From Planctomycetota bacterium (lineage in GTDB: Bacteria > Planctomycetota > MHYJ01 > WSZJ01): a stretch of 64,000 nt of DNA. The stretch lies in assembly GCA_009773755.1 (NCBI GenBank), contig WSZJ01000005.1, positions 1 to 64,000 on the forward strand, written 5' to 3'. Under the pieces are notes generated by a model. The model was not told the origin of the DNA. It saw only the letters and a list, made by a program, of their open reading frames with translations, and searched no databases. Both the position numbers and the translations under genes were made by a program. Shown here piece by piece: positions 9,832-34,555 of the stretch. Position 1 is the stretch's first letter. Every line of letters begins with the position of its first letter.

Positions 9832-11463
9832 CTACTCTTTCGCGATCGGCAGCCTCAGCTCGCTCGCGCCGAAGTGCAAGGTGATCTTCACCGGCTGCGC
9901 CGTTTTCTCATCCCAGTGATCCGCGCCTGTGCCGGCATTGCGCTCGTACCGCGGCCAATTGGTGTTGGCGAGGTAGACCCTCAACTCGTGCCCCGCGGGG
10001 AACGTCGCGGCCGTAGCAGGGAACCGCAGCGTAAGCGAGTACGTCTGCCCGCCCTGGAGCAGCTTCGCCACCGCCGTCCCGTCGCGCAACTTCGCCCGCC
10101 CGGCCGCGTCGCCGATGAGGACCGGTTTGCCGTCCACTCCCGCGTCGCAGAGGCGCGCGGTGAAATCGCAGTCGGGGGCGTTCGCTTCGAGGGACACCGT
10201 GAGCTCGACGTTGCCGTTCACGCGAAGGGGTTTTTCCAGTTTCCCCGTCGTGAACCACGCGCCGTCTTTCCTTTCCGAGAGCGCCGACTGGTCGGTCGGC
10301 CCGTGCTTCATCGGCGGGAGGTTCGCGCCGCCGAGGGTCGGCGAAGGGTCGACCGGGTCGTAGGTCCACGTCCGCGTCGACTCCTGCTGCGGGCGCTCCG
10401 CGGCGAGGCGGCCCTCCGCGGTCAGGAAGAAACTCTGCGAGTCGCGCGCCACCGCCGTCCACGCCTCGCAGCTCTTCCAGGCTTCCTCATTCACCGGCCA
10501 GTACCGCACGCGCGCCACCTTGTCCCAACCGTTGTCCTTCATCCCGCGCAGCCAGTAGTCGAAGAACGCCTTCGCCGCGCGCGCCGACTCGAGCGACGCC
10601 TTCTCGAATTTCAGCGCGCCCTGCTCCGTGACGCCGATGCTCACGTGGTCCCACGGCCCGATGAGCAGCTTCGACCCCGACCGCGCCGCTTCGCCGCCCT
10701 TCGCTACGATGTCCTCGAAGGTCCGCACGATCGCGTCCGGGTAGTTGTCCCACCACCCGGTGATCATCAGGCACGGCACCTCGATCGCCTCCGGGTGGTA
10801 CGTCGCCTTCTCCGCAAACTTCCAGAGCGGCGTCCCCGACAGCGGCGCCGCGATCACCTTCTCGCTCACCCCGAACCCGAGCTGGTCGAGCCGCTTCACG
10901 TGCCCCTCCAGCATCACCCCGCCCTCGTAGTACGCCTCGTACCCCTGCCCCATCGCGGCGATCAACGGCGCGCAGCACACCAGGTGCGGCGGATGCTCCG
11001 CGGCCGTGTCCAGCTGCTGCTTTCCGAGCGCGCTCCCGCCCCACGTACCCACCTTCCCGTCGCTCCACGCCTGCCCCGCGATCCACTCGACGCAGTCGTA
11101 CCCGTCGAGCCCGCGCTTCGCCATCGGCTTCGTCGCCGCCTTCGACCCGTAGAACCCGCGCCAGTCCACGAAGACGTAGGCGTAATGCTCCCGGTCCATC
11201 AGCACCTTCATGTCGTTGGTCGAGCCGCGCCCTGTCTCCCCCGCGGGCACGTTCGCGAGAGTCATCACCGTCCCCATGTGCTTCTTGTTGTACGGCGTCT
11301 GCACCAGCACGCACGGATACTTCCCCTCCTTCGCCGGCAGATACACGTCCGCCGCCAGCCACTTGCCGTCACGCATCGGGATCTGGACGTCCTTCTGCTC
11401 GGAGTTCCAGCCTTCCGCGGCGACCGGCAGGGCAAGGGCGAGGGCAAGGGCAAGGGTCCGCAT
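9832..11463 (-). CDS. Secreted CocE/NonD family alpha/beta hydrolase
   Basis: A 543-aa protein with an N-terminal signal peptide (MRTLALALALALPVAAEG). The alpha/beta hydrolase domain covers residues 25-310: the nucleophile Ser144 lies in GTWGGSALG, the acid is the Asp of GWWDNYPDA and the histidine is in GPWDHVS. The C-terminal jelly-roll (X-Pro dipeptidyl-peptidase C-terminal domain) runs from about 330 to 543. Relatives hydrolyse esters, acylated peptides or beta-lactam side chains; the substrate here is not inferable. ATG 11463 gives a clean signal peptide. Upstream open codons are antisense to the divergent selenoprotein gene. Confidence 0.88.
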   Translation of the reverse strand: MRTLALALALALPVAAEGWNSEQKDVQIPMRDGKWLAADVYLPAKEGKYPCVLVQTPYNKKHMGTVMTLANVPAGETGRGSTNDMKVLMDREHYAYVFVDWRGFYGSKAATKPMAKRGLDGYDCVEWIAGQAWSDGKVGTWGGSALGKQQLDTAAEHPPHLVCCAPLIAAMGQGYEAYYEGGVMLEGHVKRLDQLGFGVSEKVIAAPLSGTPLWKFAEKATYHPEAIEVPCLMITGWWDNYPDAIVRTFEDIVAKGGEAARSGSKLLIGPWDHVSIGVTEQGALKFEKASLESARAAKAFFDYWLRGMKDNGWDKVARVRYWPVNEEAWKSCEAWTAVARDSQSFFLTAEGRLAAERPQQESTRTWTYDPVDPSPTLGGANLPPMKHGPTDQSALSERKDGAWFTTGKLEKPLRVNGNVELTVSLEANAPDCDFTARLCDAGVDGKPVLIGDAAGRAKLRDGTAVAKLLQGGQTYSLTLRFPATAATFPAGHELRVYLANTNWPRYERNAGTGADHWDEKTAQPVKITLHFGASELRLPIAKE

Positions 11464-11547
11464 CCGCAGCTTCCTTAATGAGAGAGAGTCTGGTAGGAAG
11501 TGCGGAGAAGAAACCCGACCCGCGCCCTCAAGTTTCGGAGGATTTCC

Positions 11548-12105
11548 ATGAAGTGGGCCCCATCGTACGACGAGGCCGTGAAGGAAGCCCAGGCGTCGAA
11601 GAAGCCGCTTCTCATCGACGCCTTCTCCCCCAACTGACCGGCCTGCGCGAAACTGGATGCGGATACGTATCCAACGGCGTCGGTGGCGGCGTTCGTGGAA
11701 GGGAACTACGTCGCGCTCAAGGTGAACGTGAAGGAGCAGCGCGACCTCGCGAAGAAGCTGCGCGTGATCTGGACGCCGACGGTCTTCGCCGCCCTGCCCG
11801 ACGGCACCGTCCTCCACCAGACCATCGGCTGGCTCCCGCCCTCCGACTTCCTCGCCGAATTCGGCTACGGCCTCGCCCGCGCCTCCCTCGAAAGCCGCGA
11901 CTTCGACGCCGCCAGCCGCCTCCTCCGCGACGCCGTCGCCCGCGCCCCCGGGCACGACCGCGCCCCCGAGGCCATGTACTGGCTCGGCGTCAGCGAGTTC
12001 CGCCGCACCGGCGGCATCGAAGCGGCGAAAGTCGCCTGGAAGGAGCTCGCCGACAAGTGGCCGGCGTCCGCGTGGGCGACGCGCGCGCGGTGGCTCGTCA
12101 CCTGA
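11548..12105 (+). CDS. Thioredoxin-like selenoprotein (UxxC) with TPR-like C-terminus
   Basis: Translated through an in-frame TGA at 11635-11637, the gene encodes 185 aa. The N-terminal half is a thioredoxin fold: helix SYDEAVKEAQASKKP, strand LLIDAF, then Sec30-Pro-Ala-Cys33 at the exact place of the CxxC, followed by strand YVALKVNVKE, and the cis-Pro region RVIWTPTVFAALPDG. Residues 110-185 are helical repeats (DFDAASRLLRDAVARAP), TPR-like. A GGAGG lies 7 bases before ATG 11548; starting after the TGA would delete the active site. The reading is strong because the fold is continuous across the TGA. A weak stem may follow the TGA, but a convincing SECIS was not resolved by eye. It is probably co-transcribed with the GNAT gene 4 bases downstream. 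Confidence 0.85.
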
Positions 12106-12109
12106 CCGC

Positions 12110-12616
12110 ATGCCCGCGCTCGCCTTCGCCAAAGCCGACGCCTCCGCCGCCCCCTCCCTCCGCGCGATCGCGGCCGCCTGCGCCGAGGACCTGACGAAAC
12201 GCTTCGGCCCCGGCCACGGGTCCGGCGTCCGCACGATCGAGACCATCCGCCGCAACTGCCGCCACAAGGACGTCTGGCTCGCCCGCGACGGCCCCGACAT
12301 CGTCGCCACGTTCCAGCTCGAGCCGAAGAAACCGGGGTTCGTGTCGCGGAAAAAGTTCACGCGCCCCGACGAGCCCTACCTCTGGCTCGTGAACTTCTTC
12401 GTCCACGCCACCCGGCAGCGCCGCGGCATCGGCCGGGCGTGCATCGAGGAGATGCGCCGGATCGCCGCGAAGCGCGCGGCCCGCTGGGTGAGATGGGACG
12501 CCTACAGCGCGCCGGCAGGGGCCTCGGCGTTTTATGAGAAATGCGGGGCGAAGCTCATCGATGCAACGACGGTTCGCGGGGTCGGGTTGGCGATTTTCGA
12601 GGTCGGCGCGAGTTGA
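12110..12616 (+). CDS. GNAT family N-acetyltransferase
   Basis: A 168-aa protein. The acetyl-CoA binding motif A is VHATRQRRGIGRACIEEM (about residues 98-115, pattern RxxGIG), preceded by strand YLWLVNFFV and followed by a motif B-like WVRWDAYSAPAGASAFYEKCGAK, in which AFYEKCGA is the usual end of the fold. The substrate is unknown. It starts four bases after the selenoprotein stop, so the two are probably one transcript. Confidence 0.85.
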   Translation: MPALAFAKADASAAPSLRAIAAACAEDLTKRFGPGHGSGVRTIETIRRNCRHKDVWLARDGPDIVATFQLEPKKPGFVSRKKFTRPDEPYLWLVNFFVHATRQRRGIGRACIEEMRRIAAKRAARWVRWDAYSAPAGASAFYEKCGAKLIDATTVRGVGLAIFEVGAS

Positions 12617-12715
12617 GTTCGAGTCCCGCTCGAGGAGCTTGGTGTTTTTATTTCGGAAGTAGAGTTCTGAGCTGAAGCAAGTGCGCGATCTCCGCTTCGC
12701 GCCAGCGGACGTAGG

Positions 12716-13252
12716 TTATTTCCCCGAAGCGGGTGGTCCGTCTGATAGAACGGCACCAAGCGCTTCCTGGAGTTCCAGCTGTCCACCGTCCGTGAGGACA
12801 AAGAGCCCGGAGATTCGGTTGGAAGCGCCCTCGGGCGACCGGGTTTCGACATCCGAAATCACAGCTCCATCTCCATAAATCGTGAGGGACATTTGGAATC
12901 CGTCCGTTTTGGTGAGCAGCACTTCTATTTCGGCCGGTGTCCGCAGGGCGCAGGTGGCATTTGGCGGAGGGAGGATCTCGAAGTTTTTTCCCATGACCAA
13001 GATCGCTCGTCGGCATTCAGCCGCGGGAATTTCTCTCCACTCGGTCGCACCGGACCGGCGAGCCTGAAACCGGGAGATTCTGGCGGGTACAGGGAGGACG
13101 AGGGATGGGCCGGTCGGAGATGCCATGGGAAGCCTGACTGTCGTTGGATGTGGTCTGGACAGCCAGAGACGAACTGGGATTGAGATGGCCAGCGCCAGCA
13201 GCAGTGCTCCCGGCACTGCGAGACGACGCATCCAGGGAAGGCTCGGGGTCAC
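12716..13252 (-). CDS. Membrane-anchored or exported protein of unknown function
   Basis: About 178 aa from GTG 13252, or 171 from ATG 13231, with one hydrophobic segment near the start (RRLAVPGALLLALAISIPV). The rest is soluble, with two cysteines near the middle that could form a disulfide (AAECRRA and NATCALR) and a beta-rich C-terminus. No family is recognised. A TAGAAT box ends only six bases before GTG 13252, so the GTG may be a leaderless start. This opens a stretch of visibly less GC-rich genes. Confidence 0.6.
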   Translation of the reverse strand: MTPSLPWMRRLAVPGALLLALAISIPVRLWLSRPHPTTVRLPMASPTGPSLVLPVPARISRFQARRSGATEWREIPAAECRRAILVMGKNFEILPPPNATCALRTPAEIEVLLTKTDGFQMSLTIYGDGAVISDVETRSPEGASNRISGLFVLTDGGQLELQEALGAVLSDGPPASGK

Positions 13253-33496: not shown

Positions 33497-34555
33497 ATGG
33501 CGCTCTTCAGCAAGACCCGCCCGCGGCTGACCGACATGTCCAGCTGCGCCGGCTGAGCGTCGAAACTGGGTCCGGCGGACCTGCACAAGGCCCTGGAAGG
33601 GCTGACGGCGCCGACTGACGCGAACGTTCTCGTGAATGCGGGGACGTTCGACGATGCGGGCGTGTATCGACTGGACGCGGAGCGGGCGCTGGTGCAGACG
33701 GTGGATTTCTTCACGCCGATCGTGGACGACCCGCGGTCGTACGGGCGGATTGCGATCGCCAACGCGCTGTCGGACGTGTACGCGATGGGCGGGCGTCCGA
33801 TCAACGCGCTGAACATCCTGTGCTACCCGATGGAAGCGCTGGGGCACGAAGTGCTGCACGAAATTCTCGCGGGCGGAAACGACAAGTACACGGAAGCGAA
33901 ATGTGTGCTGCTGGGCGGGCACAGCGTGACGGACCAGGAGCTGAAATTCGGCGCGGCGGTGACGGGGCTCGTGCATCCGGACCGGATCTGGACGAACGCC
34001 GGGGCAAAGGCGGGGGATGTGCTGGTGCTGTCGAAGCGGCTGGGAACGGGGATCCTGACGACGGCGCTGAAGGCGAAGAAAATGAGTGAAGCGGACGCGA
34101 AAGAGGTCGTGGCGCAGATGGAGCAACTGAACGCCGGCGGCGTCGCGGCCGCGGAAGGAAAGGAAGTGCACGCGGCAACGGACATCACGGGCTTCGCGCT
34201 GGCGGGGCACGGGTCGGGAATGGCGGAGGCATCAGGCGTGACGCTCGTGATCCAGACGTCGAAGGTTCCCGTGCTGCCTGAGGCCGAGAAATTCGCGGCG
34301 AAAGGGCAGAAAACGCGCGGGGACGTTTCGAATCGCGAGTGGCTCGGCCCGAAGTACCGGACGGCCGCGGGAGTGCGGAAATCGCTCGAGGACATCATGT
34401 TCGACCCGCAGACGTCCGGCGGCCTCTTCTTCAGCGTCCGCCCCGACCACGCCGACGCGCTCGCGCGCGATCTGAAAAAAAACGGGTTCGAATACGCGGC
34501 GATCGTCGGCGAGGTGAAGGCGAAATCGGAGCGGCTGATCGAGTTTGTCCCATGA
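33497..34555 (+). CDS. selD: Selenide, water dikinase SelD, itself a selenoprotein
   Basis: A 352-aa protein read through TGA 33554-33556 as Sec20. Sec occupies the active-site position in SCAGUASKLGP, where other SelD proteins have Cys or Sec (GCxCK or GUxCK type). The rest is typical: AGVYRLDAERALVQTVDFFTPIVDDP, YAMGGRPINALNI, LLGGHSVTDQELKFG and DPQTSGGLFFSV. SelD makes selenophosphate from selenide and ATP, the donor for Sec-tRNA synthesis. GGAGG lies upstream of ATG 33497. A 5-bp stem with a GGC loop follows the TGA at 33569-33581. The TGA overlap (ATGA, 34552-34555) couples it to the next gene. Length is normal for the family. Confidence 0.95.
33569..33581 (+). promoter_or_regulatory. 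Candidate bacterial SECIS hairpin of selD
   Basis: GGTCC-GGC-GGACC forms a perfect 5-bp stem. The loop starts 18 bases after the Sec TGA and begins with GG. This satisfies the usual bacterial SECIS rules: apical loop 16-37 bases downstream, G among its first two bases. Confidence 0.65.

Follow-up and report, generated by a model that had tools for sequence, protein, structure and literature searches.

A predicted selenocysteine-containing thioredoxin-TPR protein with a covarying SECIS hairpin in Planctomycetota

The combination of an N-terminal thioredoxin (Trx) domain with a C-terminal tetratricopeptide repeat (TPR) tail is known from CnoX/YbbN, of which the Caulobacter representative is described, in the accessible part of the source, as a CXXC-containing, active oxidoreductase and constitutive holdase (PMC8129009). 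Among selenoproteins, the nearest counterpart in a 2026 catalogue covering 119 prokaryotic families is a thiol:disulfide interchange protein of PF13098 (PMC13188914, Table 1); it shares the Pfam domain and the UxxC motif with the protein described here, while the table entry, on which the comparison is based, names neither a TPR tail nor Planctomycetota. The terms TPR, tetratricopeptide or Planctomycet- do not occur in the main text of that catalogue. Similarly, the available text of a 2016 survey of selenoprotein-rich phyla does not name Planctomycetota (PMC5029168), and that of an anammox metagenome paper contains the word "selenocysteine" in the reference list only (PMC3655542); another paper of 2016 reports on selenoproteins in two planctomycetes, with six having antioxidant activity in one of them (PMC4807772). 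A Trx-TPR fusion with a UxxC active site is thus new as far as the literature was searched, with the reservation that Table S9 of PMC4807772, which holds planctomycete selenoprotein candidates, could contain a relative.

The window, i.e., the whole stretch of 64,000 nucleotides that was analyzed, represents contig C224 of the host assembly (genome G000; 5.78 Mb, 302 contigs). The gene under study and its elements are the following.

11537-11542, + strand: Shine-Dalgarno sequence GGAGGA, spacer to the ATG 5 nt (sequence)
11548-12105, + strand: predicted Trx-TPR selenoprotein gene, 185 amino acids (frame read through TGA, Pfam, homologue alignment)
11635-11637, + strand: UGA, predicted selenocysteine (Sec) 30 of the UPAC active site (sequence, homologue column)
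11644-11646, + strand: predicted resolving Cys33 (UPAC motif)
11654-11673, + strand: predicted bacterial SECIS stem-loop UGGAUGCG[GAUA]CGUAUCCA (folding, covariation)
11860-12102, + strand: C-terminal TPR helices, residues 105-185 (Pfam, model, fold matches)

The frame starts with the ATG at 11548, contains the in-frame TGA at 11635-11637 (residue 30) and ends with the stop codon TGA at 12103-12105. A sequence-only reading had proposed a start at a well-placed Shine-Dalgarno sequence, Sec instead of the first cysteine of a CxxC motif, a complete Trx fold and a TPR-like tail, and these proposals were borne out. U30 is the first residue of U-P-A-C and stands at the place of the first CxxC cysteine; when the TGA is read through, the window protein lies above the Pfam cut-offs (23.5-27) of four Trx-type models, namely Thioredoxin_2 (40.7 bits), Thioredoxin_7 (38, cut-off 27), Thioredox_DsbH (32.4) and Thioredoxin (28.5). 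Proline 77 occupies the cis-Pro place of the Trx fold and is conserved, and Cys33 is the sole cysteine of the protein; none of the curated NCBIfam models is reached at its cut-off. The frame 11548-12105 is very probably a genuine selenoprotein gene encoding a Trx fold and a TPR tail.

Regarding the tail, TPR models match residues 105-174 of the window protein below the Pfam cut-offs (TPR_6, 23.1 bits versus 26.3), and TPR_6 is above its cut-off in the 68%-identical homologue P0003 (29.0 versus 26.3 bits). The AlphaFold2 model of the window protein (pLDDT 77.6, pTM 0.64; low confidence at residues 31-35) comprises a Trx-like part followed by five helices at the C-terminus. Only this protein and that of locus L014 were folded, from a two-row alignment, with four other models at pLDDT 59-64, and the weakness of the fold matches of the Trx part is attributed to this narrow basis. 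Best Foldseek matches were the TPR domain of YbgF (2e-4) and E. coli YbbN/CnoX (3qou; 7.4e-4, TMq 0.35, rmsd 12.5), the latter being the only two-domain match among four hits at E<=0.001. In VIA-align, the list of which tests mostly residues 79-185, chain 2xev_B gave a Z-score of 14.4 and an rmsd of 4.3 over 109 residues. By sequence and predicted fold, residues 105-185 are a TPR tail of the YbgF type, the YbgF/CpoB TPR domain (2xev) being closest in both respects. YbgF is not known to have a Trx domain.

The layout, which the same reading had called non-standard, is so in comparison with a classical thioredoxin; as a Trx-TPR fusion, however, it has a precedent in CnoX/YbbN (PMC8129009, accessible part). 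The window protein differs from CnoX/YbbN in having Sec where these have Ser or Cys, and in its shorter tail. TPR_20 (PF14561), the CnoX tail family, is absent from the Pfam matches of the window protein at E<=1 and was not matched in the host genome either, with the E. coli and Caulobacter controls being positive. By analogy, the window protein plausibly works like CnoX, yet by TPR_20 and by sequence it falls outside CnoX. Weak matches over the Trx part were also obtained with three related families of Trx-like selenoprotein domains, Trx7/PDZ (NF041199, 22.8 bits), VPGUxxT (NF041383, 13.3) and TsoB (NF045694, 28.7), all missing their cut-offs of 300, 275 and 805, respectively; the tails of these three families differ from the TPR tail, and for Trx7/PDZ the motif given in Table 1 of PMC13188914 is CxxU instead of UxxC.

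From sequence, the gene very probably encodes a cytosolic Sec-containing thiol-disulfide oxidoreductase, acting as a reductase, in which UGA30 is read by means of the SECIS element and SelB, and the TPR tail docks a client or partner. In established Trx chemistry, the nucleophilic attack comes from the N-terminal residue of the motif, and the second cysteine acts as the resolving one. When the ribosome arrives at UGA30, SelB loaded with Sec-tRNA would bind the hairpin, resulting in insertion of Sec. The selenolate of Sec30 would then attack a disulfide or an oxidised cysteine of a client docked, directly or via a partner, to the TPR tail, and Cys33 would resolve the mixed selenenylsulfide; the likely act would be the rapid reduction of a disulfide or sulfenic acid in the client via the selenenylsulfide.

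A special case of this explanation, which we regard as possible though rather unlikely, is a CnoX-like seleno-chaperedoxin, whose TPR tail would hold unfolded or oxidised clients while Sec would reduce or protect the client cysteines; the clients might then be passed on to GroEL. It would agree with the Trx-TPR layout, with 3qou as the sole two-domain fold match, with the CXXC motif and oxidoreductase activity of Caulobacter CnoX (PMC8129009, accessible part), and with the missing TPR_20 match in the genome, from which it follows that the role of CnoX may be vacant. It is opposed by a BLAST comparison with YbbN of E. coli, which showed no similarity (E 0.81, for a provisional YbbN sequence), by the shorter tail of the YbgF/TPR_6/TPR_16 type, and by Cys33 being the only cysteine, so that an equivalent of CnoX Cys63 is missing; furthermore, signal-like N-terminal stretches, recognized by eye in part of the family, would be ill-suited to GroEL.

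The reading as a Sec oxidoreductase with a docking tail is in line with the conservation of the protein. Homologues (E <= 1e-10) were found in 80 of 392 Planctomycetota genomes, and the UGA form was verified in at least 50 of the 392. Among 70 of the 109 matches listed, the column of residue 30 holds TGA in 68 cases and Cys in three (71 readable homologues; one match does not extend to the column); the three cysteine homologues, which had been expected to support Sec, are a full-length member (L041) and two proteins of other architectures (L064, L077). Of the 60 full-length members, 59 have U at position 30 and one has Cys; Cys33, Pro77 and Gly94 are kept in all 60, Trp3 in 58, and in the tail Glu141 in 58, Tyr144 in 57, Gly147 in 54 and Trp176 in 55. 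Since catalytic and tail residues are kept alike, conservation extends to the whole two-domain protein, beyond the Trx part alone. The two closest relatives (genomes G222 and G131) are 75% and 68% identical and share the ATG start. Upstream of the UGA the homologues have W3, A10, A14 and P28 in common, and none of them needs a start downstream of it. For three sequence pairs, dN/dS is 0.18, 0.26 and 0.39 downstream and 0.20, 0.47 and 0.67 upstream, the upstream values covering 29 codons only and being weak for the window versus G222 (0.50/0.75); in-frame constraint is thus present on both sides of the UGA, with the upstream stretch being short. A scan of genome contigs yielded one locus, L014 of Planctomycetota, which is identical to L017 and was counted once; tblastn against plasmids gave no match to the Trx-TPR protein. 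In L018-L029 and L045-L047, mostly of genome family f50, forms with a signal-like N-terminus (by eye) occur beside shorter ones without it and together with tandem copies, which suggests, from sequence, exported and cytosolic paralogues. Tandem UGA copies are found in L025, L027 and L065.

A SECIS element had been proposed to be sought in the bases after 11637, and the hairpin at 11654-11673 was found there. Its stem of 8 bp carries the apical loop GAUA, which starts 24 nt after the UGA. With a folding energy of -11.2 kcal/mol, the hairpin conforms to the published bSECIS model, i.e., a loop of 3-9 nt, a stem of 4-16 bp, the loop 16-37 nt from the UGA, G in the first two loop bases and MFE <= -7.5 (PMC13188914). 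The 56-nt stretch after the UGA folds better than its shuffles (z -2.5). In the 68-sequence alignment (64 distinct rows), seven stem pairs hold in 90.0% of the cells, compared with 16-48% in slid controls; cells changed on both sides number 21 versus 4.2 expected in shuffles (kinship of the sequences inflates such pair counts), the covariation score was matched by none of 500 shuffles, and unaided RNAalifold returned the same helix minus the outermost pair. A good hairpin is absent in two of the 68 UGA forms (L043 and the first of the L065 genes), and 20 of the 68 are weaker than -7.5 kcal/mol when only a contiguous stem is scored. At gathering thresholds, Rfam reports only tRNA in the window; the SECIS element therefore lies below every Rfam gathering score.

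That the conserved bases after the UGA would merely reflect a peptide constraint (DxxTYPD) instead of an RNA signal is very improbable. TYP and D/G are indeed conserved as peptides, and part of the stretch is common to Thioredoxin_7 relatives. Column pair 23-36, however, is A-U in 44 rows, G-C in 14, G-U in two, C-G in one and other in three, where the change in column 23 converts Asp to Gly and column 36 falls on the synonymous third position of a Tyr codon. GAT is accompanied by TAT, and GGT by TAC (45/1 vs 2/15; p 2e-11, a value overstated because the sequences are related), which means that the exchange between Asp and Gly has its counterpart in a silent change of the Tyr codon needed by the RNA alone. 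In L076, in which Tyr is replaced by Cys, the stem pair is retained through a silent change of the Asp codon. Furthermore, the hairpin energy of the window gene was reached by none of 200 synonymous-codon shuffles (at or below 5% in 43 of 68 family members), and in the full-length cysteine form L041 no hairpin was found.

Reading of UGA30 as Sec would be served by a full set of components in the host genome, comprising SelA (450 bits), SelB (311 bits for its N-terminal part, rising to 344 when the in-frame C-terminal part is included), tRNA-Sec (71.9 bits, above the gathering score; ARAGORN tRNA-SeC, anticodon tca) and a single SelD (370 bits), which would supply selenophosphate and is encoded in the window itself.

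33497-34555, + strand: selD with in-frame UGA at 33554-33556 (SSCAGUASK; profile match and motif, start approximate)

The UGA in SSCAGUASK stands at the usual Sec site of SelD; its bSECIS-like hairpin is UGGGUCC[GGC]GGACCUG, with the loop 17 nt after the UGA. As a UGA gene in the same window, selD provides a positive control for Sec decoding. Across the phylum, SelA was found in 244 of 392 genomes and co-occurs with the UGA form, namely in 47 of the 50 genomes whose UGA form was verified versus 197 of 342 others (p = 8e-8, hand-counted genomes, with kinship inflating the counts); the three UGA-form genomes in which no SelA match was found are all fragmented MAGs. Among Thioredoxin_7 matches listed from twenty hand-picked genomes, ten per group, TGA occurs in 64 of 115 from SelA-positive and in none of 35 from SelA-negative genomes (p = 9e-11, hand-counted matches). 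The cysteine homologue L041 belongs to genome G377, which is without a SelA match.

Two further explanations of the TGA codon were rejected. Reassignment of UGA to Trp or another residue in this lineage, or its read-through without selenium, would account for the open frame only and is hardly credible, given that both the Trx-TPR gene and selD terminate in TGA, that the replaced residue is the catalytic cysteine, and that the SelA-negative genomes lack TGA among the Thioredoxin_7 matches listed. A true stop, frameshift or assembly error, leaving a pseudogene or the 140-amino acid ORF 11683-12105 that standard annotation would give from GTG 11683, has a negligible probability in view of the same-column TGA in 68 of 71 readable homologues and 50 genomes, the open frame with conserved residues upstream of the UGA in full-length members, and the covarying hairpin after it.

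The gene is not the only one of its kind in the host. TGA is present in 22 of 32 Thioredoxin_7 matches of this genome, and at least 21 Trx-like UxxC UGA genes were counted (27 automatic hits minus six dropped by eye), 20 of which are followed, at 19-26 nt, by a hairpin with a folding energy of -6 kcal/mol or lower. The Trx-like UGA genes (L092-L136) are distributed over genome G000 as follows.

Contigs C10, C18, C29 (four), C36, C52, C61, C70
Contigs C145, C224, C251, C258, C259, C262 (two), C281 (two), C293, C294

A SECIS covariance model detects seven places at E < 1e-4, of which six fall in Trx-like UxxC frames and the seventh in a frame where Gly takes the place of Cys; from its sequence, the host seems to represent a planctomycete lineage rich in selenoproteins. 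Many Trx-like UGA genes are also present in its relatives of the same genus. Several loci deserve mention in their own right. L098 (G000 C4:54008) is a strong match to the SECIS model (28.3 bits) in a Trx-like frame with Gly three after U. At G000 C29:12389-20898, four Trx-like genes with UGA form a cluster together with a Thioredoxin_7 match that has no stop. The Thioredoxin_7 matches at C242:15269 and C242:16727 carry two in-frame TGAs each and are possible double-Sec proteins. L001:339-778 (G000 C145), a Trx-like UGA gene (FWADD-U-GAC) with a signal-like N-terminal stretch, adjoins the tRNA-Sec gene.

The neighbours of the Trx-TPR gene are the following.

9832-11463, - strand: Peptidase_S15/PepX_C (CocE-like) hydrolase, divergent neighbour (profile match)
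12110-12616, + strand: GNAT acetyltransferase, start 4 nt after the stop of the Trx-TPR gene (above two GNAT Pfam cut-offs)

Coupling to the GNAT gene, pointed out in the sequence-only reading, is real in the window but local, since in G222 and G131 no GNAT gene was found next to the Trx-TPR gene. The downstream genes differ in these two closest relatives, so that a GNAT operon as a conserved unit was rejected, and the absence of GNAT at that place puts it outside the system. A similar S15-type hydrolase ORF lies at the same place in both relatives and is regarded as a neighbour only. Across the homologues, no recurring neighbour family was found beyond close kin; genome family f50 shares LOG-like and SdhB-like ORFs (assigned by eye) on the opposite strand, which are clade-specific. 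Scans of 11300-12800 for sigma-70 promoters and terminators returned none of either, a result that is uninformative for Planctomycetota.

It is a tentative and rather improbable proposal that a so far undescribed class of seleno-chaperedoxins exists in Planctomycetota, in which the Sec Trx-TPR protein would replace CnoX and would be a widespread member of a radiation of Trx-fold selenoproteins, several of them with near-identical SECIS elements, with RNA constraint having fixed part of the protein sequence (the TYP motif). Since annotation readily mistakes such UGA genes for truncated ORFs, a redox family that occurs in at least 50 of 392 sampled genomes could be overlooked. The predicted family, which is phylum-wide, combines a selenium-based active site with a helical domain for docking, and its RNA signal is well conserved. 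It would provide a natural experiment, in which the influence of the SECIS element on codons, and even on amino acids, is visible and a cysteine form lacks the element, and it makes the recruitment of Sec into client-handling Trx-TPR proteins testable.
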